Assembly: GCA_021202075.1 (NCBI GenBank)
Contig: JAJQDT010000005.1
Span: forward strand, 1-64,000
Direction of reading: 5' to 3'
Source: Lachnospiraceae bacterium
GTDB lineage: Bacteria; Bacillota; Clostridia; Lachnospirales; Lachnospiraceae
Length of the DNA stretch: 64,000 bases
The notes below the pieces were generated by a model, which worked only from the letters and a program-made list of their open reading frames with translations, ran no database searches and had not been told where the DNA came from. The position numbers and the translations under genes were made by a program. This document shows positions 47 to 37,244 of the stretch, piece after piece. Every line of letters starts with the position of its first letter. The first letter of the stretch is position 1.

Positions 47-1091
47 TCAGGCTAATATACCAGCATCTTCTTCTATCAAATATTTAACTCCATTCTGATT
101 TAAAGCTATCACAGGAAGTTTATTTGCCATTGCTTCAACAACAGCAGTACCTGTGGTTTCCCGCAATGATGGAAGGCATAAAATATCTGAATTGGCATAT
201 ACTTTTGGCATTTCTTCAAAAGATCTTTTTCCATGCATAATTACAGTTTTCTGTAATGCTCTGTCCTTAATCTGCTGTCTCACATCATCTATTTGATGCC
301 CACCGCCATACAAGTCAACAAGGTAAGGAATATCCGTTTTGAGTACTTTTAAAGCATCAAGCAGAAGTTCTATTCCCTTGCGGTACATGAGCCTACCAGA
401 GACTAAAATATGAATAATATCGTTTTTCTCATGCGTTAATTCTTTTCTTTCATCAAGATACTCATCGTCTACTCCCAGTTCACACATCTGGGTCAGTTTT
501 ATGTTAGTTCCGAGATGTCGTTTCATTACTGCGACGGTTTCATCATTAGAAACAAAAATAGCAGCTGCTCTTCTTGCCCCCTTCTTATAAATCGGTAAGG
601 ATACTGCAAGATTATTAATCAGGCTTCTAATTTGTTCATTCTTCTTATATTTCTGTACATAACCCTTCAATTCGTAAGGAGTCTCTTGACCCCCCCACAG
701 GTCCGAATATAAATGGGGTATCCAACTTCCACAAAAACCCCATGTTCCGAAAATCTGCGATAGCCACATGATGAACAATATCAAAATGTTCTTTTTTATT
801 CAGTTTTTTTGCCTCTTTATAAGCGTACCACTGCCAAATCACATAACTAGCAAAGTAAAACTTTCGTCCTTTTAATACTTTCCCAAGGATGCGTGGCACT
901 GAAATATAATGAAACGTAGCATTTATGCCTTCATTTTTTTCTAAATATTTTTCAATATCCTTTTGATTCCCTTCGTTGGTTAGTACATGAACATCTTGTT
1001 TCAACGACATACTTTTAGCCCAAGACCAACCTACATAAGCGTCTGACCCAATAGCGGGATTACATTCAAAAGCGGAATATAGAATTTTCAT
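47..1091 (-). pseudogene. GT4 glycosyltransferase, frameshifted at a poly-G tract (phase OFF)
   Basis: Two overlapping minus-strand reading frames make up one family 4 glycosyltransferase. The first (645-1091) starts MKILYSAFECNPAIGSD and reads to FIFGPVGG. It then leaves frame exactly at the 7-G run (690-696) and stops. The second (47-784) picks up as GGQETPYELKGY and contains the donor-binding half (VSGRLMYRKGIE, LPSLRETTGTAVVEAMA). Joining at the run restores the GPVGGGQE motif common in this family; 6 or 9 G would be in frame. The frame also ends at 47, earlier than usual for GT4 after the E-x7-E motif, so a C-terminal truncation or second lesion is possible. It is the last gene of the operon, 10 bp after the radical SAM gene. 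Acceptor and sugar cannot be told. Confidence 0.85.
690..696. repeat. 7-bp homopolymer (C7; G7 on coding strand)
   Basis: A run of seven C on the plus strand lies at the codons of the GPVGG loop of the glycosyltransferase. At length 7 the frame is broken. Lengths 6 or 9 join the two halves. It is the shortest of the five runs in this locus, and the only one not followed by TA on the coding strand. Confidence 0.85.
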
Positions 1092-1101
1092 TGCAATCGT
1101 C

Positions 1102-2277
1102 CTACTTCTTCATCTGTGCCGCAATATCAGCATCCACAATTTCTTCGCCAGTCTTGCCTTTCAGTTGCTCCTTCGATGCCGCACTTAAGCCATCGTTAAC
1201 CACAGCAGACAGATCGCATGTGCTGCACTTATCCAACTGCTCCTTTGTTACTTTTCCATCCCTGTAGTCGCAGCAAATCTTGTTCTCATACATAGAATAC
1301 GGATGCTTGGTGAACAGTGCCTTCGCCTTGTGCTTCACAACCCACCATGCAGGCTTTAAGAAGTATTTGTGCATAGCCGGAGAAACCGAGCCAATCATCC
1401 AACACTGGCGGTCACAGCAGCGCACCTTCTTACGAACAACCTCTGCTTCCGGACTGTTCCACAGCTCGTCCCAGGTCTGTGTGTTCAGGTTACCCATGAC
1501 TTCCTTATCCTTCGTTCCGTTACAAGGCATAACATCCCCATAAGGATCAATGAAAAACGTGTCGAAGCTCATGTCGCAAGGCAAAAGTCTCGGCTGACCG
1601 TAGATGTAATTGATAAGGCCATGGTTGAAATATGCTCTGAACCACTTCTTCGGACTGTTGGAGCGCAACAGTTCATTAACCAAATCCTCGAAGTTTTTAG
1701 CAACCATCGGGCGGTCATGAATAATATTTTTCGCTTCAACAAAGTAGAAACTATTGTGCAGAGAAGCTGTGGCAAACTCCATGCCCATTTCATCGGAAAT
1801 TTTATAAAGCGGCACAAGGTCGGGAGCATTCTTGTCCTGGACGGTCATTCCAAATCCCACATCTTTGATGCCCATCTCCACGAGTTTTTTCAAAGTACCA
1901 TACCCACGCTGATAGCCATTCTGAAGACCACGGATTTCATTGTTGGTTTGTTCCAAACCTTCAATTGAAATACGAATACCAACATCCGGAAACTCCTTGC
2001 ACAGTTCGACAATACGGTCCGTAAAAAAGCCGTTCGTAGAAATGACAATACGGTCGCTCTTCTTCCGAAGTTCAGCGACAATATCTCTTATATCTGTTCG
2101 GATGAACGGCTCGCCACCAGTAATGTTCGTGAAATACATTGGAGGGAGCTTCTTAATCGTTTCGATACTGATCTCTTCTTCCGGCTTGGAAGGTGCCTTG
2201 TATCTGTTACACATGGAACAACGAGCATTACATCTGTATGTAACAATTACCGTTCCGTTAAGTTTTTTCTCTGCCAT
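1102..2277 (-). CDS. radical SAM/SPASM-type protein of the polysaccharide locus
   Basis: The 391-residue protein has the radical SAM cluster-binding motif C-x3-C-x2-C (C16, C20, C23) followed by the glycine motif NITGGEP. This fits binding of a [4Fe-4S] cluster and S-adenosylmethionine. The C-terminal half carries many further cysteines (PCNGT, CCDRQCW, KICCD, CSTC), as in SPASM-type proteins that hold auxiliary clusters. It lies between an acyltransferase and a glycosyltransferase, so it probably modifies a sugar or glycan component. The substrate is not readable from the sequence. No membrane segment is visible, so it should be cytoplasmic. Confidence 0.85.
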   Translation of the reverse strand: MAEKKLNGTVIVTYRCNARCSMCNRYKAPSKPEEEISIETIKKLPPMYFTNITGGEPFIRTDIRDIVAELRKKSDRIVISTNGFFTDRIVELCKEFPDVGIRISIEGLEQTNNEIRGLQNGYQRGYGTLKKLVEMGIKDVGFGMTVQDKNAPDLVPLYKISDEMGMEFATASLHNSFYFVEAKNIIHDRPMVAKNFEDLVNELLRSNSPKKWFRAYFNHGLINYIYGQPRLLPCDMSFDTFFIDPYGDVMPCNGTKDKEVMGNLNTQTWDELWNSPEAEVVRKKVRCCDRQCWMIGSVSPAMHKYFLKPAWWVVKHKAKALFTKHPYSMYENKICCDYRDGKVTKEQLDKCSTCDLSAVVNDGLSAASKEQLKGKTGEEIVDADIAAQMKK

Positions 2278-2303
2278 AATCTTTTAACTCCTTTTTGAAG
2301 TTT

Positions 2304-3404
2304 TTATGCTTTTACTACTTTCTTCTTTATGCCTTTTTCTATATATTGATAGGCCACCGCGAATATCAGTGCCCCACCTATCGTTCCAACACAGGCGATT
2401 ATGTACGAAACCACACTCTCTCCTGCAATTGTTGTCAACCCTAATTTCTCCAAGACTCGGAAAACCATCATGTGTGCAATGTAAATTTCCAAGCTAACTC
2501 CACATATGAATTTGCTGACTGGATTGCACCAGATTTTCGTCTCAAATCCAAGTGTTCCAATCACCACAAAAGAATATCCTATTAAATGCTGTAATGTGCC
2601 AGCAAGCACCATTAAATCACTTGTTTCCGGTAAATAAATTAGATGCATGAAAGCCAATCCGAGCAGGACAAGGAATAATCCCATCACATTTCCTCGCACC
2701 GTTCCTAATTTTTCATACCAAGCTCTTATCTGCTCCCTGTACAGATATATCAGTCCACCCGCTATAAAGAAACATAACCACCGTAATACATTAGCCTCCA
2801 CATCCACTCCATCAACGGTAAAATACACACTGCAAACATAACTAACAGCTGTTGACAGAATCAGACTAAACCAAGCTCTCTTCTTGTTCCAAATCAGGAA
2901 AACGAAGAACGGAAACAAGATGTAAAATCCAAATATTACGCCAAGAGTCCAACCTACGCCGATGACGGAAATGTTAGGCGCAGGGAAGAATCCAAACATC
3001 AAAGTCAGATCAGCAAACGCTTCATAGAGAGTGCCAATACCGATCCCGCCATCAAGCAAAAAACCAACCGCCACGTCTATAAGAACAAGCAGAGCAAAAA
3101 ACGGGAGGATTTTCCAATATCTTCTGCTATAAAAATCATTCAGGCTAATCTGGTTATTTTTTATTTTTTCATAGTATCCGCAACACATGGAAAAACCGCT
3201 TATAACAAAAAATAAATAAACAAGTTCACCAAAAGATCCTATCAAGCTGTTAATGACGTAGTCTGCAATACCCCCCCCCGCAGAAATTTCGAAGCCAATG
3301 TTTGCACGAACATGCATACAAATCACTCCGATAGCCGCCAAAGAACGGATACCGTCTAGATTGTTATATCGCTGTGGTTTACCAGCCTGTGCTTCCATAT
3401 TCAA
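2304..3404 (-). CDS. membrane acyltransferase 3 (OafA-like), poly-G tract in frame (phase ON)
   Basis: A 366-residue integral membrane protein with about ten hydrophobic segments. It starts with the hallmark NLDGIRSLAAIGVICMH of acyltransferase family 3, whose members O-acetylate surface sugars. A 9-G run encodes Gly43-Gly45 (SAGGGIADY) between the first two membrane segments, and here the frame is intact. Loss or gain of one G would stop translation early, so the gene looks phase-variable and currently ON. Its ATG overlaps the stop of the upstream glycosyltransferase (ATGA), indicating translational coupling. The acetylated residue is unknown. Confidence 0.88.
   Translation of the reverse strand: MNMEAQAGKPQRYNNLDGIRSLAAIGVICMHVRANIGFEISAGGGIADYVINSLIGSFGELVYLFFVISGFSMCCGYYEKIKNNQISLNDFYSRRYWKILPFFALLVLIDVAVGFLLDGGIGIGTLYEAFADLTLMFGFFPAPNISVIGVGWTLGVIFGFYILFPFFVFLIWNKKRAWFSLILSTAVSYVCSVYFTVDGVDVEANVLRWLCFFIAGGLIYLYREQIRAWYEKLGTVRGNVMGLFLVLLGLAFMHLIYLPETSDLMVLAGTLQHLIGYSFVVIGTLGFETKIWCNPVSKFICGVSLEIYIAHMMVFRVLEKLGLTTIAGESVVSYIIACVGTIGGALIFAVAYQYIEKGIKKKVVKA
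3271..3279. repeat. 9-bp homopolymer (C9; G9 on coding strand)
   Basis: Nine C on the plus strand fall at codons 42-45 of the acyltransferase, which stays open at this length. The coding-strand context is TCTGC-G9-TATTGC. This is nearly the same as the run at 27649 and similar to those at 6565 and 37236, all followed by TA. Confidence 0.88.
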
Positions 3405-5242: not shown

Positions 5243-6157
5243 TTAATACTCAATCTCTTTCAAATACCTGCATACCGCATCCTGCCATGCGGGTAAAGGC
5301 TCAAATCCTGCTTCTACCAGCTTGCTTTTATCCAACCGGCTATTGAACGGACGAGCAGCTTTACTTAATCCATATTCCTCTGTAGTCACAGGAATAACGT
5401 TAGTCGTATAACACGCCTGCCTATAGATCTCCTTCGTGAAGTCATACCAACTGATATATCCGCCCTCATTTGTGGCGTGATAGTAGCCATACTTCTCGGT
5501 TTCGACCATATCCACAAGAAGCCTCGCCAAATCATATGTATAGGTTGGTGTACCAATTTGGTCATTAACGACTTTCACGGTGTCATGAGTCTTTCCGACA
5601 TTCAACATCGTCTTGATGAAGTTCTTGCCGTTAAGTCCGAACACCCATGCAATACGAACAATGAAGTACTTATCCAGTATGGACGAAACTGCCAGCTCAC
5701 CTTCCAGTTTTGTTTGTCCATAGACATTGAGAGGCTTATAGTTCTTACAGTCTGGCTGCCAAGGCTCAGTGCCTTGACCATCGAACACATAATCTGTGCT
5801 GATATAGACCATTTTGTAGCCGAGCTTCTTGCAAATCTCTGCGATATTTTTCGTACCGCCAGCATTGACCGCACGGACTTTCTCGACCTTGTCATCATCC
5901 TCTGCCATATCCACAGCCGTCCACGCGGCGCAGTGAATCACAACATCCGGATCGATTTCTGTGATGGTCTTATCAACTGCATCTGCGTCAGTAATGTCAA
6001 GTTGTACATACCGAGCTGTGGTCACAGCAGATCCGTCAGCTCCACCAGAGTAAGTTTCAGCAACATCGGAACCAACACCCTCATAGCCACGCTTATATAA
6101 TTCATTCATCACATCGTGTCCGAGCTGACCTCCGACACCAGTTACGAATACCTTCAT
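5243..6157 (-). CDS. rfbD: dTDP-4-dehydrorhamnose reductase
   Basis: A 304-residue extended short-chain dehydrogenase, last step to dTDP-L-rhamnose. The NAD(P)-binding loop is GVGGQLG (residues 7-13). STDYVFDG follows, and the catalytic pair is Tyr146/Lys150 in NVYGQTKLEGE. The start codon overlaps the stop of the phase-variable acyltransferase upstream (ATGA, 6154-6157). When that gene is out of frame, coupled translation of rfbD could therefore be altered, although frame-shifted ribosomes stop far upstream of this junction. Confidence 0.96.
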   Translation of the reverse strand: MKVFVTGVGGQLGHDVMNELYKRGYEGVGSDVAETYSGGADGSAVTTARYVQLDITDADAVDKTITEIDPDVVIHCAAWTAVDMAEDDDKVEKVRAVNAGGTKNIAEICKKLGYKMVYISTDYVFDGQGTEPWQPDCKNYKPLNVYGQTKLEGELAVSSILDKYFIVRIAWVFGLNGKNFIKTMLNVGKTHDTVKVVNDQIGTPTYTYDLARLLVDMVETEKYGYYHATNEGGYISWYDFTKEIYRQACYTTNVIPVTTEEYGLSKAARPFNSRLDKSKLVEAGFEPLPAWQDAVCRYLKEIEY

Positions 6158-7214
6158 ATGCTACCAATCCTCTTTGAAATTATATTTATTCCTCTGTCAC
6201 AAACAGGTCTTACGCTTATGCACAGCAATATTTCGACAACCATTAAAATCACAGTAGTCACAAAAATTCCCGCATTTGCACTTAATCCGTTTATTCTTGA
6301 TGTACACACATTTTCTATCAATGTTCTTATCATCAATGACTCATGTGTTGCCATAATAAATAAGGAGTTCATACCCAAGGACACAAATCCTGTATTAAAT
6401 TTGGGAACTTTCGCAACCAGAATACTCAGGCATAAAACAGCTGATATACCTAAACCGCTGGTGATAAACGTCATCAAAGGAAATCCCACTTCTAAAAAGT
6501 GGTAATCTATTAAATCCGCATAATTAGCTAAAAACAATAACAGTGCAATCGCGACTGCGCAGTACCCCCCCCCCCGCTCAAAATTTTGACTTTTTCAATT
6601 AAGAGTGGGATATTATTTCGCACCGAATACCCAAATATAATAAAGCTACTCATTAAAACCGTTCTTATAATCGTCGCTATCGGATAATACACCAATCTCA
6701 TTGCTCCAGACTCTATCTGTGGCATAAAATACGCAGCTATACTACTAATAGTAAAAATAACAATCGCAACTAATAATCTGGCTTCATCGGTTTTAAATAT
6801 TATTGCAATACATTTTGTTATTACCTTTCCAAGTATTAAACTTGCCAAAAACCATAAAACACTAATTCCAAACAAGGTCACAGTTTGGTATATATGCCAA
6901 AACAGAATGTTTACGCTAATTGTTTTTAATATCAAAAATTTGACGAAGACATCGAAAGCCAAATACAGTGCTGACCAAAATAAATAGCTTGCAATAAGTT
7001 TTTTCTCTTCTAAAAATGATTCCTTTATCGTTATTAAGGTGGCATCTTTCATAACTAAACCGCTTAGGAAGAAGAAAAGAGGCATATGAAACGAATAAAT
7101 AAACACACGCCAATAACTATCTGTTGGAAGAGCATGTCCTATAACAACAAGAAGAATTCCTATCCCCTTTGCGACATCATATTCTTTTATTCTTTTTGTT
7201 GTGGTACGTTTCAT
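6154..7214 (-). pseudogene. membrane acyltransferase, frameshifted at a poly-G tract (phase OFF)
   Basis: Two frames form one family 3 acyltransferase. 6528-7214 begins MKRTTTKRIKEYDVAKGIG and carries the family signature GILLVVIGHALPT plus several membrane helices. It runs out of frame at an 11-G run (KILSGGGG, then an artefact tail). The rest (6154-6537) continues AVAIALLLFLANYADLID and the last membrane segments. A run of 9 or 12 G would join them into about 350 residues. Its stop overlaps rfbD and its start is 2 bp after rfbB. The likely role when ON is acylation, probably acetylation, of the exported glycan. Confidence 0.87.
6565..6575. repeat. 11-bp homopolymer (C11; G11 on coding strand)
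   Basis: The longest of the five runs. At 11 the acyltransferase frame is broken; multiples of three (9, 12) restore the reading SGGG(G)YCAVAIA. The coding-strand context is GAGC-G11-TACTGC. A run of this length is expected to be the most unstable during replication. Confidence 0.9.
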
Positions 7215-7216
7215 CT

Positions 7217-9197: not shown

Positions 9198-10337
9198 TTA
9201 TCCTATCGCTCTCCTATAGAGCTTTATCGTTTTCCTGCTTACCTCATCCCAGCTGTACTTCGTACAGATAAAATCAGCAGCGCCATCCTTATACTTCTTC
9301 ACAGCCGTGTCATCATCCATCAGTCCCTGTAGCTTCTCTCTAAGGTCGCCCACATCACTTTTCCGAAACACCACAGCCTTATCTTCAACAACCTCAGTAC
9401 ATTCTTCTATGTCACTCACCACACAGCAATTGCCGTAGCTCATAGCTTCCAACAGGCTTAAAGGCATCCCCTCCAGGTCACTAGGCAACACATATACGTA
9501 AGCGTTGCTGTACAGCTCTTCCCGTAATCTTCCGGCAACAAAGCCTGTGAAAACCACATTCTCGTTATTGCCGACCAGCTTCCTCAACTCCTGCGTAAAT
9601 TCATCCGTATCGGAAGATCCACCGGCAATGACAAGTTTCTTGTCCGTCCGCAACCCCTTATATGCTTCAGCTAAATACGTCAACCCTTTTTCCGGTACAA
9701 GACGACCAAGGTATAAAAGGTAATCGTCTTTTCTTAATCCAAACTTCTCTGTAATCTCCTTAGCTTCTCTGATCTGTGGCCGACTCACTCCGTTTGGGAT
9801 GAACACAGTTTTTCTTTTATAAGTCTTCCAAAAATACTCCTGCACACCTTTGCTAAGGACAATGATCTCCGAAGCATGTTTAACAGCCATCTTCTCGCCG
9901 ATTTTTATGTACTTAGAGCCTAACCCTCCTGACCACTTTTGGCGCCTATGGTCTATACCATGGATTGTCGCCACACATCTTTTTCCAAAAATTCCCGTAA
10001 ACCACATCCAAAAGCAAGGTCCTTCCGCATGGTAGTGAATCACATCATATCCGCTGAAAGTCGCCTTAACTGTGGCAAAGAACGATGACGACATCGCTGC
10101 AAGTCCTTTCCGATGTATTGTGAACACCGGTTTCAACTTAACTCCCTTATACTCTGACAATCCGCCATTATCACAGCCTGTCCGGTTATAACAGGTCACC
10201 TCGCAACCCATCTCAGCCAATCTGGGCGCGAGTTCTTCAACCACAACTTCTATGCCTCCACGGGAACTGTCTATGGCTGGAACCGTCTTGTGACCCAGCA
10301 TCGCGATCTTAAGAGGAACATCCCTTTCTCTATTCAT
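9198..10337 (-). CDS. GT4 glycosyltransferase, the only full-length copy of the array family
   Basis: A 379-residue GT-B enzyme. The N-terminal domain has LKIAMLGHKTVP and SRGGIEVVVEELAPRL. The donor domain has YLGRLVPEKGLTYL, GFVAGRLREELY and SDLEGMPLSLLEAM with the E-x7-E site. SD-like GAAGGGGTG lies upstream of the ATG. Eight N-terminal fragments nearly identical to its first 30-130 residues lie upstream (10.6-16.9 kb), so it looks like the expressed end of a recombining array. In GT-B enzymes the N-terminal domain mainly binds acceptor. The position next to rfbA is compatible with rhamnosyl transfer, which is unproven. Confidence 0.92.
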   Translation of the reverse strand: MNRERDVPLKIAMLGHKTVPAIDSSRGGIEVVVEELAPRLAEMGCEVTCYNRTGCDNGGLSEYKGVKLKPVFTIHRKGLAAMSSSFFATVKATFSGYDVIHYHAEGPCFWMWFTGIFGKRCVATIHGIDHRRQKWSGGLGSKYIKIGEKMAVKHASEIIVLSKGVQEYFWKTYKRKTVFIPNGVSRPQIREAKEITEKFGLRKDDYLLYLGRLVPEKGLTYLAEAYKGLRTDKKLVIAGGSSDTDEFTQELRKLVGNNENVVFTGFVAGRLREELYSNAYVYVLPSDLEGMPLSLLEAMSYGNCCVVSDIEECTEVVEDKAVVFRKSDVGDLREKLQGLMDDDTAVKKYKDGAADFICTKYSWDEVSRKTIKLYRRAIG

Positions 10338-10404
10338 TTGTTATAGACACCCCTTCATCCTAAACTCTTTTTTCTCCACGTATATTTATAACTTGCTTCT
10401 TTGA

Positions 10405-10653
10405 ACGACAATAAGCCCGCAACCAATATGCTATTTGCATATTGGCCGCAGGCTCAGCCTTACCTCCTTATCTGATTTTTATGCTCGTTCGATTGGGTCA
10501 AAACGGAGCAACCAAAAGCCACTCACATTATTTACCGGATCTTCCGGCTTGCCCAACCTCTACATAAAAACCAGTTCTAAAGAGACTAAGCCAAGCCGTA
10601 ACACCTTGTAAATAAAGGCTTTTTCTTGGTTGTCCCTATTATATCTCCATCAC
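10405..10653 (-). repeat. ~249-bp structured repeat element R1, copy a
   Basis: Read on the minus strand it begins TGATGGAGATATAATAGGG, directly after glycosyltransferase codons for HAEG. It ends in a strong hairpin (stem GCCTGCGGCCAATATGC with its complement, 5-base loop) followed by TTATTGTCGTT, like a factor-independent terminator. Internal conserved features are a GCTC...GAGC helix with loop TTGACCCAATCG and an upstream GGTTGGG that could pair with CCCAATC in that loop. It carries no ORF beyond the 23-codon tail it adds to the fragment. I do not recognise the family. Confidence 0.75.
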
Positions 10654-10969
10654 CTTCCGCATGGTAGTGAATTACATCATATCCACCAAAGGTTGCTTTA
10701 ATCGTCGCGAAGAAGGAGGATGTCATCGCTGCGAGTCCTTTCCGATGTATCGTGAACACCGGTTTCAGCTTAACTCCCTTGTACTCCGTCAACCCACCGT
10801 TATCACAACCTGTTCGGTTATAGCAAGTCACTTCGCATCCCATCTCAACCAATCTGGGAGCAAGCTCTTCAACTACAACTTCTATTCCTCCGCGGGAACT
10901 GTCTATAGCCGGAACCGTTTTGTGCCCCAACATCGCAATTTTAAGAGGAGCATTCTTTTCTTTATTCAT
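10586..10969 (-). pseudogene. N-terminal glycosyltransferase fragment F1 fused to R1a
   Basis: Starts MNKEKNAPLKIAMLGHKTVP and matches the first ~108 residues of the full-length enzyme up to VIHYHAEG. It then runs into the R1a element, which adds DGDIIGTTKKKPLFTRCYGLA and a stop. The open frame extends 13 codons upstream to 11008, but the homologous start with normal spacing is at 10969. The donor-binding domain is missing, so it cannot be an active enzyme. The tail is identical to that of F2. Confidence 0.85.
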
Positions 10970-11031
10970 TTTTACAGATACCCCCTCATCCTGAACTCTT
11001 TTCTCCACAAATAATCGTGGGTGCCTCGTTT

Positions 11032-11281
11032 AACGACAATAAGCCTGCAGTCAATATGCTCTTTTGCATACTGGCCGCAGGCTTAGCCTTACCTCCTTAT
11101 CTGATTTTTATGCTCGTTCGATTGGGTCAAAACGGAGCAACCAAAAGCCACTCACATTATTTACCGGATCTTCCGGCTTGCCCAACCTCTACATAAAAAC
11201 CAGTTCTAAAGAGACTAAGCCAAGCCGTAACACCTTGTAAATAAAGGCTTTTTCTTGGTTGTCCCTATTATATCTCCATCA
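11032..11281 (-). repeat. ~250-bp structured repeat element R1, copy b
   Basis: Nearly identical to R1a over its whole length, including the conserved TTGACCCAATCG loop block. The terminal hairpin differs at a few paired positions (GCCTGCGGCCAGTATGC with GCATATTGACTGCAGGC) yet still pairs. It follows glycosyltransferase codons for FHAEG on the minus strand, the same join as R1a. Confidence 0.75.
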
Positions 11282-11604
11282 CCCTCAGCGTGGAAATGGA
11301 TGATGTCGTAGTGGCCGAAGGTCGCCTTGACTGTGGCAAAGAAGCTGCTCGTCATGGCGGCCAGACCTTTTCTCTTAAAAGTCGGCACTGGAATCAGGTT
11401 CACACCCTTGTACTCCGACAACCCTCCGTTGTCACAGCCCGTCCGGTTGTAGCAGGTAACTTCACAGCCCATCTCAACGAGCCTTGGTGCTAACTCCTCA
11501 ACCACAACTTCAATGCCACCACGTGAACTGTCCATTGCCGGAACCGTCTTGTGCCCCAACATTGCAATCTTGAGAGAGCCACTCTTTTGTTTTCCCATTT
11601 TCAC
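11215..11604 (-). pseudogene. N-terminal glycosyltransferase fragment F2 fused to R1b
   Basis: MKMGKQKSGSLKIAMLG starts a copy of the array glycosyltransferase that ends after DIIHFHAEG, then takes the R1-encoded tail and stop. About 108 of 379 residues are present. Its start overlaps the stop of F3 by 4 bp (ATGA), so the two could be translationally coupled. It differs from F1 at residues such as IPVPTFKRKG against KPVFTIHRKG, so it is a diverged copy and not a fresh duplication. Confidence 0.85.
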
Positions 11605-12110
11605 ACAGCCCCCTCATATGCCAATCCGCCAAGTTCTCCAGTTCCAAATCTATAATCACGCCCTGTGTGGGCATCATTACCGTAAAAAAATGAGTTTTTC
11701 TTAAATCTACTATCAAATAGGACACCATGAATCGTTGCTACGATACATCGTTTTTTACAAAATATCGCCGGAATCCACATCCAGAAGCACGGGCCCTCTG
11801 CGTGGAAATGGATTACATCATAATGACCGAAGGTCGCTTTGACTGTGGCGAAGAAACTACTCGTCATTGCCGCCAGTCCCTTCCGCTTAAACGTCGGCAC
11901 TGGTTTCAGCTTTACGCCCTTGTACTCTGTCAGCCCTCCGTTATCACAGCCCGTCCGGTTGTAGCAGTTGACTTCACATCCCATCTCAACCAATCTCGGT
12001 GCTAACTCCTCAACGACGACTTCAATGCCGCCTCGTGAACTGTCCATTGCCGGAACCGTCTTGTGCCCCAGCATTGCCACCTTGAGGGGAGCCTTCTTTT
12101 CAGTTTTCAT
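11601..12110 (-). pseudogene. N-terminal glycosyltransferase fragment F3
   Basis: MKTEKKAPLKVAMLGHK starts a fragment matching the full-length enzyme to about residue 128 (RCIVATIHG). There it switches to an unrelated tail containing KKNSFFYGNDAHTG and stops. The switch falls at the same codon as in F5 and F8. The following DNA carries the short AAAAACTCAT leader-like repeat (about 11661-11700), which continues into the start region of F2. The mini-leader GAGAGGAGTTATGGATAG precedes its ATG. Confidence 0.85.
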
Positions 12111-12585
12111 CTATCCATAACTCCTCTCGATTTTTCAGATTGTAATTAGTTCTATATCCCTGTCTTTAAGCCTGTGCGTTAAAGCATCCAGCCTGTACGC
12201 TACGCCATTACTTCCAAATATATCCCTGTGCGTTATGAAATTATCCGTAACCGACAGCCAGAGTATCCTCGAAACTCTCCGGTCGGTTTATCCGTTTCAT
12301 GGATAGCCGTCTCCCATTTGCCCGAAAATTCAATCCCTGCCACGCAACAGTGAAGCCAATCCAATCATAGGTTTACCTGTTTCTTCATGGGCTTTCGCCT
12401 GTTATCTGCGAAACGAAAGCCTGCCATGAAACAGGAAAACCAATCCTACCGTCTCTCCAAAACAACCGGTTTATCAATCTGACTATGTAAAAAGACTCGA
12501 CAGTGAAACCAATAGTTGCCTGTGCGCTACATTTCGGTAGGTGCTTTACCCCTATTTTTTTGTGCAACCCTACCAAAAATCGAGG
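12111..12585. other. 475-bp non-coding stretch with inverted repeats between fragments F3 and F4
   Basis: No convincing ORF. It contains four near-copies of CCTGTGCGYTA (at about 12171, 12192, 12228 and 12519). Two long inverted repeats are also present: ACCGACAGCCAGAG paired with CTCTCCGGTCGGT near 12250-12290, and CCTGTTTCTTCATGGGCTTTCG with CGAAAGCCTGCCATGAAACAGG near 12378-12440. The stretch ends where fragment F4 breaks off. It could be a further structured element of the array. I do not recognise it. Confidence 0.5.
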
Positions 12586-12897
12586 TTATGCAACGTTTAG
12601 TTGTTGTTTAACCTCAACAAAGGATTTATCCGTTGCATGTAAACTACTCGTCATTGCTGCCAGACCTTTGCGTTTAAAAGTCGGCACTGGAATCAGCTTC
12701 ACACCCTTGTACTCCGACAGCCCTCCGTTGTCACAGCCCGTCCGGTTGTAACAGGTGACTTCACATCCCATCTCAACAAGTCTCGGCGCAAGCTCCTCGA
12801 CGACAACTTCAATACCACCGCGAGAAGAATCCATTGCCGGAACAGTCTTGTGTCCCAGCATTGCAATCTTGAGGGGAGACTTCTTTTCAGTTTTCAT
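12586..12897 (-). pseudogene. N-terminal glycosyltransferase fragment F4
   Basis: MKTEKKSPLKIAMLGHK starts a copy that follows the full-length enzyme to KRKGLAAMTSS (about residue 88). It then switches to LHATDKSFVEVKQQLNVA and stops, at a break point not used by the other fragments. The 5' leader is almost identical to that of F3 (GAGAGGAGTTATGGATAG before ATG). The junction abuts the structured 12.1-12.6 kb stretch. Confidence 0.85.
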
Positions 12898-12921
12898 CTA
12901 TCCATAACTCCTCTCAACTTC

Positions 12922-13395
12922 TCAGACAGTAACCAGTTCCATATTTCCAAGCCCTCTGTGGGCATCATTAACGTAATAAAATGAGTTTTTTGATGTGCTA
13001 GAAATACCCACGTCACCATGAATTGTGGCCACACATTTTCTTCCAAGTAGCCGTGGGAACCACATCCAAAAGCAGGGTCCTTCTGCGTGATAATGGATCA
13101 CATCATATCCGCCGAAGGTAGCTTTGATTGTCGCCCATAGCGATGACGACATCGCTGCAAGCCCTTTCCGATGAAGCGTAAACACCGGTTTAAGCCTAAC
13201 TCCCTTGTACTCTGATAACCCTCCATTATCGCAACCTGTTCGGTTATAACAGGTCACTTCACATCCCATTTCAACCAGTCGTGGTGCCAGCTCTTCAACG
13301 ACGACTTCTATACCCCCTCTGGAGCTATCCATCGCAGGAACCGTCTTATGCCCCAACATTGCTATCTTAAGGGGAGCATCCTTTTCAGTTTTCAT
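12922..13395 (-). pseudogene. N-terminal glycosyltransferase fragment F5
   Basis: Matches the full-length enzyme to CVATIHG (about residue 128), then reads DVGISSTSKNSFYYVNDAHRG and stops. The sequence after the break is homologous at DNA level to that after F8 and more loosely F3, and contains AAAAAACTCATTTTATTACG. From there it grades into the leader of F4 through GGAACTGG and GAGAGGAGTTATG. The catalytic half is missing. Confidence 0.85.
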
Positions 13396-13500
13396 CTTTT
13401 AACATAACTCCTCTCAATTTCTACGATAGTGAACAGTTCCATATCCTTCTCCGAGCAAAATATGTACATACCAAAATTGCCCTCGCCCCAGTATCGGTTA

Positions 13501-13748
13501 CACAACAATAAGCCTGTAGTAGAATGACCTCCGCCATTCTACTGCAGGCTTGTCTCAACCTCCTTCTTCAATTTTTATGCTCTTTCGATTGGGTCAAAAC
13601 AGAGCAACCAGAAGCCAGCGCTTCATCTACTCAGATTTCTCGTTTGCTCAATCTCAGCATAAAAATTGTGTTCCCAGGAGACTAAGCCAAGCCAGAAACC
13701 GTTGTAAATAAAGGATTCTTCGTGGTTGTCCCTATTATATCTCCATCA
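13501..13748 (-). repeat. ~248-bp structured repeat element R1, copy c (diverged)
   Basis: Shares with R1a and R1b the start TGATGGAGATATAATAGGG, the block TTTTGACCCAATCGAA and the end hairpin position. The distal hairpin stem has a completely different sequence (GCCTGCAGTAGAATG with CATTCTACTACAGGC) but still pairs perfectly or nearly so. Such compensatory change points to selection on RNA or DNA structure. It follows glycosyltransferase codons for FKRKG, a different join from copies a and b, so the element itself appears to have moved or recombined. Confidence 0.75.
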
Positions 13749-13984
13749 CCCTTGCGTTTGAACGTCGGCACTGGTTTCAGCCTAACTCCCTTGTACTCGG
13801 ATAACCCTCCGTTATCACAACCCGTCCGGTTGTAGCAGGTCACTTCACACCTCATCTCTACCAGTCTCGGTGCCAACTCCTCTACAACAACTTCTATGCC
13901 ACCGCGAGAAGAATCCATCGCAGGAACCGTCTTGTGCCCCAGCATTGCTATCTTGAGCAGAGCTTTATCCTTCTTCATATTCAT
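13682..13984 (-). pseudogene. N-terminal glycosyltransferase fragment F6 fused to R1c
   Basis: MNMKKDKALLKIAMLGHK starts a fragment that stops matching after VPTFKRKG (about residue 80). There the R1c element supplies DGDIIGTTTKNPLFTTVSGLA and the stop. The shared D-G-D-I-I-G-T-T tail after two different break points defines the left edge of the R1 element. A conserved cysteine-to-arginine region change (VEMRCEV for VEMGCEV) is visible. Confidence 0.85.
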
Positions 13985-14045
13985 CTATCCATAACTCCTC
14001 CCTCTAATCATAATCACAGCCAATCATATAATTTTCATGTTCCTC

Positions 14046-14074
14046 TTGACACCCTACAGAAATTCTCATATAAT
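14046..14074 (+). promoter_or_regulatory. promoter of the toxin-antitoxin pair
   Basis: TTGACA at 14046-14051 and TATAAT at 14069-14074 are separated by 17 bp, a consensus housekeeping promoter. AAAGGAGG follows just before the antitoxin ATG at 14100. Confidence 0.8.
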
Positions 14075-14099
14075 TTCTCTATCAAAGGAGGTGTTTTCT

Positions 14100-14363
14100 A
14101 TGCCAACTATCAAATCAAGCACAGATTTACGCAACAACTACAATGAAATTTCAACATTCTGCCACACCTATCGTGAACCTGTTTTCATTACGAAAAACGG
14201 TCAGGGCGATCTCGCAGTAATGAGTGTCGAAACCTATGAGCAACTGACCGGCCGCCTTGAACTTTACGGTCTGTTGAAGGAAGGGCTGGACGATGTAGCA
14301 GCCGGACGTACGCAGCCTTTTACTGAAGCTATGGATGAAATACGTGCTGCAAGGAAAAGATGA
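14100..14363 (+). CDS. type II antitoxin, Phd/YefM family
   Basis: An 87-residue protein, MPTIKSSTDLRNNYNEIS, with the Phd/YefM DNA-binding fold signature (RNNYNEI, then PVFITKNGQGDLAVMSVETYEQL). The start at 14100 is chosen for the AAAGGAGG site 9 bp upstream; an in-frame start at 14037 lies over the promoter. It overlaps the toxin by 4 bp (ATGA), typical of such pairs. It should bind the toxin and repress its own promoter. It reads on the plus strand, opposite to the surrounding glycosyltransferase fragments. Confidence 0.92.
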   Translation: MPTIKSSTDLRNNYNEISTFCHTYREPVFITKNGQGDLAVMSVETYEQLTGRLELYGLLKEGLDDVAAGRTQPFTEAMDEIRAARKR

Positions 14364-14692
14364 TCTGGCAAATCCACATTACCAGACAAGCGAAGCAAGA
14401 TATGATCAATGCGGCTGATTATATCGAGTTTATGCTTCTTAACCCAGATGCAGCAGATTCTCTCTTAGATACTGCGGAAGCCAACATTAATTCACTTTCA
14501 CAGATGCCTGATCGCTTTCGTCCGGTTGATGATCCTCTTCTCTCGTCATGGGGAGTTCGTTTCATCATGGTAAAAAACTATCTCGCGTTCTATTTCATCT
14601 CCGAAGAAAGCAAAACGGTACACATCATTCGTTTCCTTTATGGAAAACGCAACTGGCTCCATATCTTAAAGCAAGGATTCTCACTTGAATAA
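14360..14692 (+). CDS. type II toxin, RelE/ParE family
   Basis: A 110-residue protein with the RelE/ParE outline: WQIHITRQAKQDMINAADYI at the start, DRFRPVDDPLL in the middle and IIRFLYGKRNW near the end. Members either cleave mRNA on the ribosome (RelE) or poison gyrase (ParE); which applies cannot be told here. It is coupled to the upstream antitoxin. The position inside the array suggests a stabilising (addiction) role, which is inference. Confidence 0.9.
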   Translation: MIWQIHITRQAKQDMINAADYIEFMLLNPDAADSLLDTAEANINSLSQMPDRFRPVDDPLLSSWGVRFIMVKNYLAFYFISEESKTVHIIRFLYGKRNWLHILKQGFSLE

Positions 14693-14717
14693 CGCTTCCT
14701 GCAGCACAGCCTGTGGC

Positions 14718-14844
14718 TTAAGCACTTGCCTTAAGTGCTTATTAAAAGGTCCTCACGCGAAAGTCTTCCTGACTCCGCGTCAGGGCCTTTTAATAAACAC
14801 TCCGGTTCTATAACCCCTTCTGTGAGTAAAAATATGAGTTTTTC
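14718..14844 (-). repeat. ~127-bp structured repeat element R2, copy a
   Basis: Read on the minus strand it begins AAAAACTCATATTTTTACTCACAGAAGGG and passes a long imperfect hairpin (AAAAGGCCCTGACGCG with CGCGTGAGGACCTTTT). It ends in TAATAAGCACTTAAGGCAAGTGCTTAA, a second hairpin. It supplies the C-terminal tail and stop of fragment F7. Compared with copy b the hairpin arms change together (CGCGG/CGCG to CGTGT/ATACG). Confidence 0.65.
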
Positions 14845-14947
14845 TGGTCTCCACAACTTCGATTCCACCTCTTGAACTGTCCATTGCCGGAACCGTCTTA
14901 TGGCCTAACATTGCAATCTTTAGATGTCTGTCTTTCACCCTTTTCAT
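14780..14947 (-). pseudogene. shortest N-terminal glycosyltransferase fragment F7 fused to R2a
   Basis: A 55-residue frame: MKRVKDRHLKIAMLGHKTVP through SRGGIEVV covers only the first ~32 residues of the enzyme. It is followed by the R2-encoded tail TRKTHIFTHRRGYRTGVFIKRP-type sequence and a stop. The same tail ends fragment F8. The leader GAGAGGAGTTATGTGACAT precedes the ATG. Too short to be an enzyme. Confidence 0.8.
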
Positions 14948-14987
14948 ATGTCACATAACTCCTCTCGATTCTCTAAACTATGGTCAG

Positions 14988-15025
14988 TTCCGTGTCCCTC
15001 TGTAGGTTAAATAATGAGTTTTTTA
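14988..15025 (-). repeat. short leader-type repeat (AAAAAACTCATTATTTAACC)
   Basis: On the minus strand the sequence AAAAAACTCATTATTTAACC, then ACAGAGGG and GGAACTG, precedes the leader of F7. The same string with small changes occurs at about 11661-11700 and 12946-12990, and at the starts of both R2 copies. It marks where fragments and elements are joined in the array. No coding potential. Confidence 0.6.
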
Positions 15026-15228
15026 ATGACGCAAAAGCTCCTGCTATCTGAACTAATCTTCCTGGCCCTAATTTGGAATCTACTGCCCTGTTTCACCCCT
15101 TCTATTTCTGATTTTTGCTTTTATTTGAAATCATAATCTCTCTATATTTCAAATTCTCTTTACTTTCTGAAATAACTCAGTTAAAATTGAATCAGTAATT
15201 TCAAATTCACAGAAAGGTTGGTATCTCA

Positions 15229-16383
15229 ATGGATAATAAAATCCGCGCCGGAAAATTTGTTAAAAACCTGTCCGGAGATATGGCTTACCAGTCATTTCTC
15301 CCTTCCGCTCTTCCTCCGGTTCCTCCAATAAACATCGATGAGGAAATGACACAGCTTTTGATTTCTGCTCACAGCCAGCTCACGCTTCTGGATGGTCTCA
15401 CAAGGCGCATCCCCAATATGCAGCTCTTCGTGTCTATGTATGTTCGGAAAGAAGCTCTGCTCTCATCGCAGATTGAGGGCACACAGGCTACCTTAGATGA
15501 TATTCTCAACCCATTGTTGGAAGAGAATGCGAATCGTGATGTAGCTGATGTCGTCAATTACATTCGAGCTGTTGATTTTGCCGTAAATCGTCTCCAGTCT
15601 CTTCCGCTGTGCAATCGGCTGATCCGCGAAACACATGCTGTCCTGATGGAGAATGTTCGTGGTCAGGAGAAAAATCCTGGTGAGTTTCGCTGCTCCCAAA
15701 ACTGGATCGGCGGCCAGGGCAGCATCTTGAGAAATGCCCACTATATCCCGCCAAATCCTCAAGAAATGATGGAAGCCATGTCCGACCTGGAAAAGTTCAT
15801 CAATGCAGAGGACTCCATAGATCATCTGATCCGTATTGCATTGATTCATTACCAGTTCGAGACGATCCACCCATTCCTGGATGGAAATGGACGAATCGGG
15901 CGGTTAATTATCATCCTCTACCTGATGGAAAACCATGTGCTTTCCTCACCCGCACTGTATCTCTCCTGGTACCTCAAACAAAATCGCGTTGAGTACTATG
16001 ATCGCATGTCTGAAGTCAGGCGAACAGGGGACTACGAGCAGTGGATCAGGTTTTTCCTCCGTGCAGTTGCTGCCTCTGCCGAAGATGCCATTCGAACAGT
16101 CGACGGGCTGTCTGCGCTTCATGACTGTAACCAACAGCTTGTTACTGATTCCTTTGGAACCCGCTCCAGAAAAAACGCCATGCAACTGTTTTCCTATCTT
16201 GAGCAAAATCCCATCATAGAAATTCAAAAAACTGCTGTCACACTTAACATGGCATACAATACTGTCGCCAGATATGTCGCAGACTTTTGCCATCTGGGTA
16301 TTCTTCTGGAGAACACAAAAGGTACGAAAGCAAGAGTGTATTCTTACGAGCAATACCTAAAGATTCTTCGTGAGGATACGTGA
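15229..16383 (+). CDS. Fic family protein (AMPylase-type) with autoinhibitory helix and C-terminal HTH
   Basis: A 384-residue protein. The Fic motif HPFLDGNGRIGR begins at His214, with the catalytic histidine, acidic residue and phosphate-binding loop all present. An N-terminal inhibitory motif of the S-x3-E-G type is at residues 79-84 (SSQIEG), so activity should be self-restrained. The last ~80 residues look like a winged-helix DNA-binding domain (AVTLNMAYNTVARYVADF). Members transfer AMP to protein side chains; the target is unknown. AGAAAGG lies before the ATG. It is a plus-strand gene flanked on both sides by glycosyltransferase fragments with R2 copies. Confidence 0.92.
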   Translation: MDNKIRAGKFVKNLSGDMAYQSFLPSALPPVPPINIDEEMTQLLISAHSQLTLLDGLTRRIPNMQLFVSMYVRKEALLSSQIEGTQATLDDILNPLLEENANRDVADVVNYIRAVDFAVNRLQSLPLCNRLIRETHAVLMENVRGQEKNPGEFRCSQNWIGGQGSILRNAHYIPPNPQEMMEAMSDLEKFINAEDSIDHLIRIALIHYQFETIHPFLDGNGRIGRLIIILYLMENHVLSSPALYLSWYLKQNRVEYYDRMSEVRRTGDYEQWIRFFLRAVAASAEDAIRTVDGLSALHDCNQQLVTDSFGTRSRKNAMQLFSYLEQNPIIEIQKTAVTLNMAYNTVARYVADFCHLGILLENTKGTKARVYSYEQYLKILREDT

Positions 16384-16402
16384 CCGATATTCCATTTTCA
16401 TC

Positions 16403-16524
16403 TAAGCACCTTCCTAAGTGCTTATTACAGGGTCCTCCCGTATGGTCATCTTGACTACACGTCAGGGCCTTTTAATAAATACTCCGGCACTCAATTCCCT
16501 TCTATGGGTAAAATATGAGTTTTT
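16403..16524 (-). repeat. ~122-bp structured repeat element R2, copy b
   Basis: Minus-strand start AAAAACTCATATTTTACCCATAGAAGGG, hairpin AAAAGGCCCTGACGTG with ATACGGGAGGACC, and end hairpin AGCACTTAGGAAGGTGCTT. It lies directly 3' of the Fic gene and encodes the tail of fragment F8, so copies a and b bracket the F7-Fic interval. Confidence 0.65.
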
Positions 16525-16929: not shown

Positions 16930-17078
16930 AAGTCACATAACTCCTCCTTCTAATTGCTATAGAAACTTAAGTGCTTTCATCTCTTTTTTCAAATAACTGC
17001 GGCAATTCGCGGTATTTCAGTCTCCGTGGTCATTTTTGAAATTATGGTTATCAAACACGACAAACAGCGGGCAGAGAT

Positions 17079-27508: not shown

Positions 27509-28049
27509 TTAAGAAAACTTCTCCGTAAACTCTTCCCACGTTTCATCAAACCTTTCCCACTTACTTCGTGGATCGGGGTCATCCATTTTCCGTTTCACCA
27601 TTAAATCATCAAAATCTCCTATGCGCTTAGCAGGGACACCTGCATATACCCCCCCCCGCAGAAATCCGGCCGGTGACAAGACTCCCCGCACCGATGATAA
27701 CGTTATCTTCAATTTTTGTTCCCGGAAGGACTGTAGAACGGCTGCCAATAAAAACGTTATTGCCAATCTCAATTGCTCCAAGATTCAGCCTGTAATGACC
27801 TTCCGAATTTTCCATATGTTTAAACACATGATGCATTACATCGTGATTCACAAAAAGCACCTCTGAAGCTATCACAACATTGTCATGCAGTTTAATCAGC
27901 TTTGATTCCGGTGGTATATTCCTCGGCTGCCAGAAGCAGTTCTCTCCCATGGACGCGAAGATATTCTTCTTTTTCATGTATTCAGCTCTTTGGAATCCAT
28001 TCTTCATCAGCGATATTCGGATCATATTGAGCATACGTTGTACAGTCAT
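27509..28049 (-). pseudogene. hexapeptide-repeat acetyltransferase, frameshifted at a poly-G tract (phase OFF)
   Basis: Two frames form one left-handed beta-helix acetyltransferase. 27627-28049 carries LFVNHDVMHHVFKH and NNVFIGSRSTVLPGTKIEDN, then loses frame at the 9-G run after GRISAG. 27509-27781 holds the end, GVYAGVPAKRIGDFDDLM. A run of 8 (or 5 or 11) G would read SAGGVYAGVPAKRIG, the canonical family ending. When ON it should O- or N-acetylate a sugar. It follows the aminotransferase gene, so an amino sugar is a plausible substrate. Confidence 0.9.
27649..27657. repeat. 9-bp homopolymer (C9; G9 on coding strand)
   Basis: Nine C on the plus strand, coding context TTCTGC-G9-TATATGC. At 9 the acetyltransferase is out of frame by one base; 8 would restore it. 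Confidence 0.9.
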
Positions 28050-32914: not shown

Positions 32915-32915
32915 A

Positions 32916-35121: not shown

Positions 35122-35131
35122 ATTCGAGTTT

Positions 35132-37228
35132 TTACGGCTTCTCCCCAACCGGATGAAAGGTCGGCACGATTTTCTCGACCATCTCTACGATGTCTGGGTT
35201 GTTTTCGTAGCTCGCGTTTGCCAGCTCCTCCAGCTGCTTCAGGAATTCTTCGACCTCAAATGGGATCGGCTTTCCGATGTAGATCAGCTCGTTGTCGGTC
35301 TTTTTGATGCCCTCCTCTGCCATTAGCTTTTCTTCGTAGAGCTTCTCGCCGGGGCGCAGCCCGGTGTAGACAATTTTGATGTCTTCGTCCGGTTTGTAGC
35401 CGGACAGACGGATCAGGTTCCTCGCGAGGGTGTCGATTTTGACCGGTTCGCCCATGTCCAGAACGAAGATCTCGCCGCCCCAGGCGTAGGTACCGGCCTG
35501 AAGGACGAGAGATACCGCTTCTGGTATCGTCATGAAAAATCTTGTAATGTACGGATCTGTAACGGTGACCGGACCTCCGGCTTCGATCTGCGCCTTGAAG
35601 CGCGGGATGACAGAGCCGTTGCTGCCCAGCACGTTTCCGAAGCGGACGGCTACGAACTGTGTACCGGTGCGTTCTTTGTTTTTGATGCTCTCGATCTTTA
35701 TTTTTCCGGAACTTCCGACAACTTCGCCCGCGGCGGCCTCTTCCCATCCTGCCGCCATATGGTCGACCGGGTCGTGCGCAGTCTGGCCGTCGATTACTTT
35801 GTCCCTGTGCGCGTGTATGAAGGGTAGCAAATCGATTCTGCCGCTCTTGCTGATGGCGTCCATACTTTGAATGACCATCTCGCAGAGGCGTTTGGAGGCG
35901 CCCATGATGTTGGTGGGATTCACTGCCTTGTCCGTGCTGATCAGGACAAAGCGCTGCGCCCCGTGGGTAAGCGCCGCGTAGGCGGTCTTATAGGTTCCGA
36001 TCACATTATTTTTGATGGCTTCGTTCGGACTGTATTCCATCAGCGGCACGTGCTTGTGCGCAGCCGCATGGAAGACAATGTCCGGGTGATAGGTCTCAAA
36101 TACCTGATTGATCCTCCTGCTGTCCCGGACGGAGCCGATCAGGACGTTCAGGTTCAGATCCGGATATTTGTCCCGCAGCTCCAGCTCAATCGCGTAGGTG
36201 GAATTTTCGTAAATGTCAAAGATGACCAGCCGCTCCGGCTTATGCCCCGCGATCTGCCGGCAGAGCTCGCTGCCAATGGAGCCGCCGCCTCCTGTGACCA
36301 GGATGGTCTTGCCCTGTATGTACTGAAAGATTTCCTGCATGTCTACCTTGATCGGTTCTCTTCCAAGCAGGTCTTCCACCGCGACGGATTTCAGGCGGCT
36401 GACCAGCACTTCGTCATTCGCCAGCTGATAAATGCCGGGCAGGCTTTTCATCCGGCATCCGGTCTCGTTGCAGATGTTCAGGATCTCTTTTTTGTCCTCC
36501 GCGTGTGCGGTCGGAATGCAAAAATAAATCTCCTCCACCCCATATGTTTTGACGATGTCCGGAATCTCGTCCCTGCCTCCGGCCACGGGCACACCCTCGA
36601 TAAAGCGATTCCATTTATTTGGATTATCATCGATGATGCAGCACGGAATCACATTCATCTTGTCCGACTGCTGAAGCTCCCGCACCACAGACCGTCCGGC
36701 TGCGCCGCCGCCAATGATCATCACCTTTTTCGCCGGAGTTCCATTCCCGACGCTGCCGTTCTGTGCCAGTATCTGTGTGTAGAAACGGTAGGTAAACCGG
36801 ATTCCCGCGACAAGAATCAGCTGCACGACCGCGCCCACTATGTAATAGGAAAACGGCATCCTCCTGAAGATAAGCGTGATGGCAACCGCGTGTGCCGCAG
36901 AAGCAGCCAAAGAAGAACACGCATACCGCAGCAGCTCGTTGAAGCCCGCGAAGCGCCAGATTCCCCGGTACATATGCGTGAACCAGAAGAAAAGAACCGA
37001 GGCGACCATGTAAAAAGGAATAAATTTAATATAGGAAAGTAAATAGGTCCTTGGGATCGTCGTGTACTGGAAATCAAAGCGCAGCCACAGTCCAAAGAAG
37101 TAGGAAAACGCGATGGCTACGGCGTCATACACCATCAGTCCGGCTGCTATGGCCTTCCAATGCTGAAATCCCTTTCTGCTGCCTGTATAATTGTATCTGC
37201 TATGAGTTTTATTGTGATTATCACTCAT
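35132..37228 (-). CDS. nucleotide-sugar 4,6-dehydratase, CapD/WbpM family, with ~60-residue insertion
   Basis: 698 residues. Four N-terminal membrane helices (about 27-145) are followed by a Rossmann domain (VMIIGGGAAGRSVV, 169-182) and the catalytic SDR domain (TGGGGSIGSE, 312-321). The triad region ISTDKAVNPTNIMGASK has Met442 and Lys446, the S-M-K type of membrane UDP-HexNAc 4,6-dehydratases. Residues about 461-521 (from GRIDLLPFIHAHRDK to KIESIKNKERTG) interrupt the usual helix-to-FVAVRFGNVLG link and are absent from typical relatives. The product would feed the aminotransferase. Translation depends on a G9 run in place of a Shine-Dalgarno site. Confidence 0.93.
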   Translation of the reverse strand: MSDNHNKTHSRYNYTGSRKGFQHWKAIAAGLMVYDAVAIAFSYFFGLWLRFDFQYTTIPRTYLLSYIKFIPFYMVASVLFFWFTHMYRGIWRFAGFNELLRYACSSLAASAAHAVAITLIFRRMPFSYYIVGAVVQLILVAGIRFTYRFYTQILAQNGSVGNGTPAKKVMIIGGGAAGRSVVRELQQSDKMNVIPCCIIDDNPNKWNRFIEGVPVAGGRDEIPDIVKTYGVEEIYFCIPTAHAEDKKEILNICNETGCRMKSLPGIYQLANDEVLVSRLKSVAVEDLLGREPIKVDMQEIFQYIQGKTILVTGGGGSIGSELCRQIAGHKPERLVIFDIYENSTYAIELELRDKYPDLNLNVLIGSVRDSRRINQVFETYHPDIVFHAAAHKHVPLMEYSPNEAIKNNVIGTYKTAYAALTHGAQRFVLISTDKAVNPTNIMGASKRLCEMVIQSMDAISKSGRIDLLPFIHAHRDKVIDGQTAHDPVDHMAAGWEEAAAGEVVGSSGKIKIESIKNKERTGTQFVAVRFGNVLGSNGSVIPRFKAQIEAGGPVTVTDPYITRFFMTIPEAVSLVLQAGTYAWGGEIFVLDMGEPVKIDTLARNLIRLSGYKPDEDIKIVYTGLRPGEKLYEEKLMAEEGIKKTDNELIYIGKPIPFEVEEFLKQLEELANASYENNPDIVEMVEKIVPTFHPVGEKP

Positions 37229-37235
37229 CTTAGTA

Positions 37236-37244
37236 CCCCCCCCC
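37236..37244. repeat. 9-bp homopolymer at the ribosome-binding position of capD
   Basis: On the minus strand CGAATC-G9-TACTAAG-ATG: the run ends 7 bp before the capD start and no other Shine-Dalgarno sequence is present. Five G can pair with the CCUCC anti-SD using one G-U pair, so the run itself may recruit ribosomes. Change in its length would alter strength or spacing. An open frame reading through the run stops on the capD start (ATGA). Confidence 0.75.

Follow-up and report, generated by a model that had tools for sequence, protein, structure and literature searches.

The five poly-G tracts in the 64,000-base stretch of DNA analyzed here (the window) probably belong to a genome-wide contingency set which, judging from sequence, would act through four layouts: inside a gene, as part of a hairpin and Shine-Dalgarno element ahead of capD, in a promoter spacer and at the junction between two genes. 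The tracts would slip in length at DNA copying, and for those inside genes the length would thereby decide whether the remainder of a glycan enzyme is read in frame. Surface-glycan genes with G tracts that toggle the reading frame, several per genome, are familiar from Campylobacter, Helicobacter and Neisseria; for gut Firmicutes, discussions of phase variation mostly concern DNA inversion. If the tracts slip, single commensal cells would display different surface sugars without recombinases, and such differences matter for how phages attack, how antibodies bind and how strains persist.

Tracts within genes, leaders and promoters

A complete scan of the window found exactly five C/G runs of at least six bases, every one at a glycan gene and every one poly-G when read on the coding (minus) strand. 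The scan bears out the original prediction, which had listed runs of 7, 9, 11, 9 and 9 bases at polysaccharide genes and no comparable runs in the housekeeping part. The frames agree with its account of three genes interrupted at the run (690, 6565 and 27649), one intact ORF (3271) and one run at a Shine-Dalgarno site (upstream of capD), and TA directly follows four of the five runs as described, the exception being TC after the run at 690. A tract inside an enzyme gene (layout 1) accounts for four of the five, three of which are out of frame and divide one gene into halves in different frames. No clear gene-junction case was found among the five; junction and promoter-spacer tracts lie outside the window.

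The G7 tract (690-696, minus strand) lies at the GPVGG motif of a GT4 glycosyltransferase gene (47-1091, minus strand) and is out of frame in the assembly, splitting the gene into halves of 645-1091 and 47-784 in two frames. A family search placed PF00534 in half 47-784 and returned no family match for half 645-1091; GPVGGG is a conserved GT4 motif. The G9 tract at 3271-3279 (minus strand) lies close to the 5' end of a membrane acyltransferase gene (2304-3404, minus strand; acyltransferase 3 family, 366 aa, PF01757, E = 5.3e-33). This gene is intact, its frame being unbroken across the tract (ISAGGGIADY). A second membrane acyltransferase gene of this family (6154-7214, minus strand) is put out of frame by a G11 tract (6565-6575, minus strand), which leaves an upstream ORF (6528-7214) with PF01757 and a downstream ORF (6154-6537) without a family match. 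Near the 3' end of a hexapeptide-repeat acetyltransferase gene (27509-28049, minus strand), another G9 tract (27649-27657, minus strand) is likewise out of frame and separates ORFs 27627-28049 and 27509-27781; PF00132 matched the upstream half, and WbbJ/NeuD-like matches were all under curated cut-offs. The 20-mer ATTTCTGC-G9-TAT is common to the tract sites at 3260-3285 and 27640-27660, although the genes are of different families. Elsewhere in the window, 9957-16954 holds numerous clustered copies, each a few hundred bases long and diverged from one another (~75-86% identical), with mostly short ORFs.

The run spectrum of the window is bimodal, with 21 runs of five bases, none of six, one of seven and four of at least nine. 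Under a first-order Markov model of the window, ~0.3 runs of at least nine bases were expected compared to the four seen, a number reached in 0 of 40 simulations. Runs of at least seven bases were not in excess under the same model (5 seen, ~4.7 expected), and the signal therefore lies in the long runs, their placement and the TA context. The context is also directional, as TACCCCCCCCCG occurred nine times in the genome and zero times in the reversed control.

The genome is a 5.55-Mb draft assembly of 173 contigs with an estimated contamination of 5.46%; the window is on contig C19. The genome contains 59 C/G runs of at least seven bases, five in the window and 54 elsewhere. The earlier notion of a five-tract system was thus too narrow. 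TA follows 21 of the 59 runs, counted over the window and the other stretches. Several tract stretches have 36-42% GC, with most other stretches near 43-55%. The G9-TA pattern was present in 61 of the 116 genomes searched, this one included, and the best capD relatives were bins from metagenomes, most of them labelled Lachnospiraceae, Clostridiales or Clostridiaceae; the source of the window is accordingly treated here as a gut bacterium of this type.

The fifth window tract (G9, 37236-37244, minus strand) ends 7 nt upstream of the ATG of an intact gene for a capD-like UDP-sugar 4,6-dehydratase (35132-37228, minus strand; 698 aa, PF02719, E = 1.2e-116; PseB/FnlA-like matches under curated cut-offs). 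It occupies the Shine-Dalgarno position and the 3' arm of a hairpin predicted by folding, the 5' arm and loop of which lie approximately at 37245-37260 (minus strand). A paralogue on contig C167 likewise has a G9 tract 7 nt upstream of its ATG. We surveyed 80 capD-like loci, 76 of them with at least 100 nt of upstream sequence, and found a G run of at least six bases between -250 and +60 nt of the aligned start in 14. The 13 leaders studied (layout 2) comprised 11 of these together with the window capD and the C167 paralogue; L223, L232 and L233 were left out, with runs 54 to 226 nt ahead of the aligned start. Tract lengths ranged between loci from G6 to G11, and the tract ended 6-8 nt upstream of an ATG in 11 of the 13 leaders (exceptions, L206 and L229). 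In 12 of the 13, the 30 nt upstream plus the tract folded better than shuffles (mean z = -2.39; window capD, -2.14; L229, +0.78), with stems that differed among leaders. As poly-G pairs readily with any C-rich stretch, this folding is only suggestive. The capD tract may serve as both hairpin 3' arm and ribosome-binding sequence, its length setting the number of Gs free for the ribosome. We also considered a leader ORF coupled to capD, as one frame ends in RGGVLR and a stop on the ATG both in the window and on C167. This reading was rejected and the hairpin/Shine-Dalgarno reading preferred, because the frame is not constant among the 13 leaders and the ORF in the window has no coding signal. 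The 2^5 glycan states proposed originally are unsupported, because length in a 5' leader, the site of the capD tract, would more likely tune initiation than frame, and because further tracts exist elsewhere.

In a promoter-spacer arrangement (layout 3), consensus-like -35 and -10 boxes flank the tract, the length of which would change the spacing between them. Such boxes were found at 16 of the 71 tracts without upstream coding signal and 3 of the 16 with weak upstream signal, compared to 1 of the 52 with an upstream gene (16/71 versus 1/52, p = 0.001). Examples include L100 (TTGACA-20-TATAAT) and the pair L110 and L111, which have a common -35 side and tracts of G9 and G10.

Tracts at gene junctions

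On contigs C99, C104, C167 and C94, a gene has the tract at its 3' end. Two of the frames meet a stop within ~20 nt, and the remaining one continues to a stop overlapping the ATG of the next gene (layout 4). Contig C31 has the same junction pattern, but with a short leader ORF ahead of a 1105-aa protein. This tract (L049:6808) sits between two ~1100-aa genes with similar starts; these starts may resemble those of phage tail proteins. The downstream gene gave only weak GDSL-lipase matches, under the cut-off.

The frequency of this arrangement was determined by script across 139 distinct tracts of at least eight bases, 52 of them with an upstream gene. A closed-frame junction was defined as one in which one frame stops on the next start and both other frames are closed within 25 nt. 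Among the tracts with an upstream gene, 10 of 52 were closed-frame junctions, compared to a rate of 0.94% among 20,680 in-gene positions picked at random (p = 6e-11). The test was devised after the cases in the genome itself (4 of 17) had been seen, and the relatives alone pass it (6 of 35, p = 9e-7). A looser test that accepted any overlap and ignored the other frames was weak (14 of 52 versus 13.4%, p = 0.007), so it is the closed frames that carry the junction signal. These counts refer to script-defined sets and not to a hand list of 30 sites viewed by eye; L063, which has the junction architecture and an Ala-Ala tail and falls below the script's coding-score filter, is uncounted.

Pattern searches extended the set. 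Fixing only the tract and GCRGCATGA returned 12 loci. The ATGA frame was open back to the tract in all of them, and in 9 the two remaining frames met a stop within 25 nt. For the eight loci new to the search (four were known before), the ATGA frame was open in 8 of 8 and the others were closed in 5 of 8. The AA-type motif had nine matches in 6 of the 47 genus genomes compared to one in the reversed control. It was found in 3 of 397 genomes of a family draw, one being a chance match inside a gene (L171, with a gene B of 11 aa), and in 3 of 392 genomes of an order draw, one of them in another family. At the two new order-draw loci, the ATGA frame was open in both, and both other frames were closed in L266 but not in L267, where one runs 78 nt; the ORF that starts at the ATGA of L266 is only 2 aa long. 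By these counts, the AA-type junction motif is uncommon. A looser ATGA pattern gave 74 matches in 28 of the 47 genus genomes compared to 4 in the control.

Folding predicted hairpins that would mask the ribosome site of the downstream gene (B). In comparisons unmatched for GC content, lower accessibility was predicted for the Shine-Dalgarno region at 11 junctions than for that at 56 natural ATGA overlaps (0.25 versus 0.43 unpaired, p = 0.002), with a lower predicted local energy (-23.7 versus -15.0 kcal/mol, p = 4e-4, GC likewise unmatched). Predicted accessibility of the start codon at the 11 junctions was not below that of the natural overlaps (p = 0.31). Compared to shuffles, 20 junction spacers had a mean z of -1.7; 14 were below -1 and 6 above, three of these positive (L060, L173 and L179). 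As judged by eye, the main stem of the folded spacers lay mostly beyond the early stops, and no T run was evident after the main stem in any of the 20.

The upstream (A) and downstream (B) genes were homologous at 8 of 20 junctions, compared to 12 of 229 other adjacent pairs in a background not restricted to glycan loci (p = 3e-5). In 6 of the 8 homologous pairs, the alignment of A ends 0-17 residues ahead of the tract, near the end of B itself, which marks the read-through tail as an addition; the exceptions are L274, which aligns only partly, and L180, whose alignment extends nine residues past the tract. In L180, three cytidylyltransferase genes follow one another in tandem, and each of their junctions bears a tract. 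At L131, a GT2 gene and a GT8 gene are followed by read-through tails with identical letters throughout, and the tails precede two GT8 genes that are 70% identical, as if the spacer and B had been duplicated together.

The tract, the frames, the stop/start overlap, the paralogy and the Ala-Ala tails described below can be read in the DNA itself, and we infer from this arrangement that tract length switches translational coupling to gene B. The tract lies roughly where protein A naturally ends. Ribosomes in two of the frames would stop at once and leave intact the predicted hairpin masking the Shine-Dalgarno sequence of B; in the third, they would translate through the hairpin, stop on the start codon of B and reinitiate, turning B on.

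The read-through tails have a characteristic end. At closed-frame junctions with an upstream gene, the tail ended in Ala-Ala in 7 of 10 cases and in Ala in 9 of 10. The corresponding figures were 0 of 7 and 1 of 7 at closed-frame junctions without an upstream gene (Ala-Ala, p = 0.01) and 5 and 66 of 939 among other long ORFs (Ala-Ala, p = 7e-13). An AA-blind search of the genus genomes was also analyzed, using 72 of the 74 matches (two of three near-identical G006 rows were left out). Ala-Ala ends were found in 9 of 16 matches with the ATGA frame open and the others closed, in 1 of 7 whose ATGA frame was open but whose others were not both closed, and in 0 of the 49 lacking an open ATGA frame (16 versus 49, p = 4e-7); several of the 72 rows come from the same tract, and the span limit makes L062 and L063 of the genome itself 'not open'. 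Seven of the nine Ala-Ala cases were known before, and the two new ones use GCT. The first Ala codon thus varies (GCG, GCA and GCT), which points to the residue.

The genome's own tmRNA tag, AEDNLAYAA, likewise ends in Ala-Ala. Taken with this YAA end and the frequent A/B homology at junctions, including the tandem cytidylyltransferases of L180, the concentration of Ala-Ala tails at closed-frame junctions with an upstream gene suggests that the open frame may mark A for destruction while B is made, and hence that the switch may trade A for B. Under such a reciprocal switch, the read-through frame would give A a C-terminal tag resembling the tmRNA degradation tag, A being destroyed and B made; in the other frames, A would be stable and B off. 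The proposed effect of the tail on A is one that we infer, and we hold this reading, which extends the coupling explanation and can be true together with it, to be possible rather than likely. GCNGC might instead serve RNA or reinitiation, 12 of the 20 A/B pairs are not homologous and some junction tails end in one Ala or none. A shade more tentative is the generalization that hypervariable junction tracts switch reciprocally between alternative enzymes encoded in tandem, so that chains like L180 would choose one of several enzymes.

The junction cases could also be ordinary intragenic ON/OFF contingency sites that happen to lie close to the 3' ends of genes in operons, where the stop overlaps the following start in any case. 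Stop/start overlaps are common, with 11% of 517 genes ending on or beside a start, and at L060, L115 and L117 the post-tract residues resemble, by reading, the protein's own C-terminus. The ~20-fold enrichment of closed-frame junctions over random in-gene positions, the tails extending beyond the homologous end of A in 6 of 8 pairs, and the Ala-Ala end seen in 0 of 56 natural ATGA overlaps versus 7 of 10 junctions argue against this explanation, which we consider improbable compared to switched coupling.

Relation to known switches

The nearest described system is the pil1/pil3 leader switch of Streptococcus gallolyticus, in which, according to the passages of PMC3894217 dealing with it, GCAGA repeats, a leader peptide and a transcription terminator were shown by experiment to act together. 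As in pil1, a slipping repeat would alter the frame of an upstream ORF, and only the longer frame would bring ribosomes into a hairpin and turn the downstream gene on; the steering of ribosomes into a hairpin by a slipping repeat is thus a known principle. In contrast to the dedicated leader peptide and terminator described for pil1 in those passages, the repeat here is poly-G and is usually placed where a complete enzyme gene ends, the predicted hairpin lies over the Shine-Dalgarno sequence, and the stop falls on the next start codon. Several copies are present per genome, and the tails often end in Ala-Ala.

Campylobacter, Helicobacter and Neisseria possess poly-G contingency genes (see PhasomeIt, PMC6321876), and the tract passages of PMC6437147 concern C. 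jejuni (cgtB) rather than gut Firmicutes. The tracts described here resemble those of the three genera in lying in surface-glycan genes, several per genome, with putative frame toggling, but differ in their occurrence in what are apparently Lachnospiraceae-type gut bacteria and in the co-occurrence of junction, promoter and hairpin/Shine-Dalgarno layouts. Homopolymer-driven C-terminal switching in Helicobacter canadensis, as outlined in the relevant passages of PMC2823697, similarly has a tract that alters the protein C-terminus; at the junctions here, by contrast, the new end falls on the start codon of the next gene, with a predicted masking hairpin. Poly-C phase variation of mga in Group A Streptococcus provides a Gram-positive case of C/G-tract slippage, a property only presumed for the present tracts, although in the passages of PMC10330708 on mga it affects one regulator gene and the only changes described are in that protein.

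Among the matches listed from the open-licence literature, we found no report of poly-G tracts controlling the next gene by coupling or of such tracts in Lachnospiraceae glycan loci, and a term search of a 2025 review (PMC11868660) gave no match for translational coupling, attenuation or homopolymeric tracts. The poly-G form, placed at enzyme-gene ends and putatively acting on start-codon access, was likewise not found among those matches. If the proposal is true, the junction layout would be a compact means for a repeat to control the next gene or swap two enzymes, beyond breaking one. In annotations it would appear only as unusual C-terminal tails; its spelling (a tract, two early stops and one open frame to the next start) can be searched for in genomes.

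Tract lengths and broken frames

Slipped-strand switching, as originally proposed, is partly supported by the glycan-enzyme sites, by the three of four in-gene window tracts that are out of frame and by the unequal lengths of some flank-matched tracts; what did not stand was its restriction to five tracts. Of nine tract pairs with matching flanks, all from different genomes or paralogous loci, four were of unequal and five of equal length. Ahead of the same capD gene, for example, the tract is G9 on C167 and G8 in a relative. Many tracts of relatives were retrieved by a search for at least nine Gs, which narrowed the range of lengths. Tract-associated frame shifts outside the window were found on C22 and C86.

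Homopolymer assembly error had been named as what would refute the switching, and no general error pattern of this kind was seen. Where coding signal was present on both sides in the genome, A/T runs of at least seven bases were in frame in 55 of 58 cases (3 shifted), compared to 12 of 18 C/G runs of at least seven bases (6 shifted; Fisher p = 0.004). Homopolymer errors do occur on some sequencing platforms and the genome is a draft, but it is very unlikely that the broken frames are sequencing or assembly errors, because A/T runs hold frame more often than C/G runs and length miscalls would be unable to produce the long runs, TA context, junction frames or promoter placement. The names of several related records (NODE_..._cov), the genome itself not among them, also suggest short-read assemblies.

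Three further groups of tract sites were observed. A paralogous gene family (L061:892 and 7485, L067:425 and L077:458) has a G7-G8 tract in the context ...ACAATGC-G-(T)CAGAACGA..., with one of its four copies (L077) in frame in the assembly. At L051:8201 (contig C33), a broken ORF contains a G9 tract, and a run of Ns marking a scaffold gap occurs shortly beyond the tract. A related locus in three genomes (L088:1156, L089:1503 and L107:1501) has tracts of G9, G11 and G9, respectively, with a similar downstream flank.
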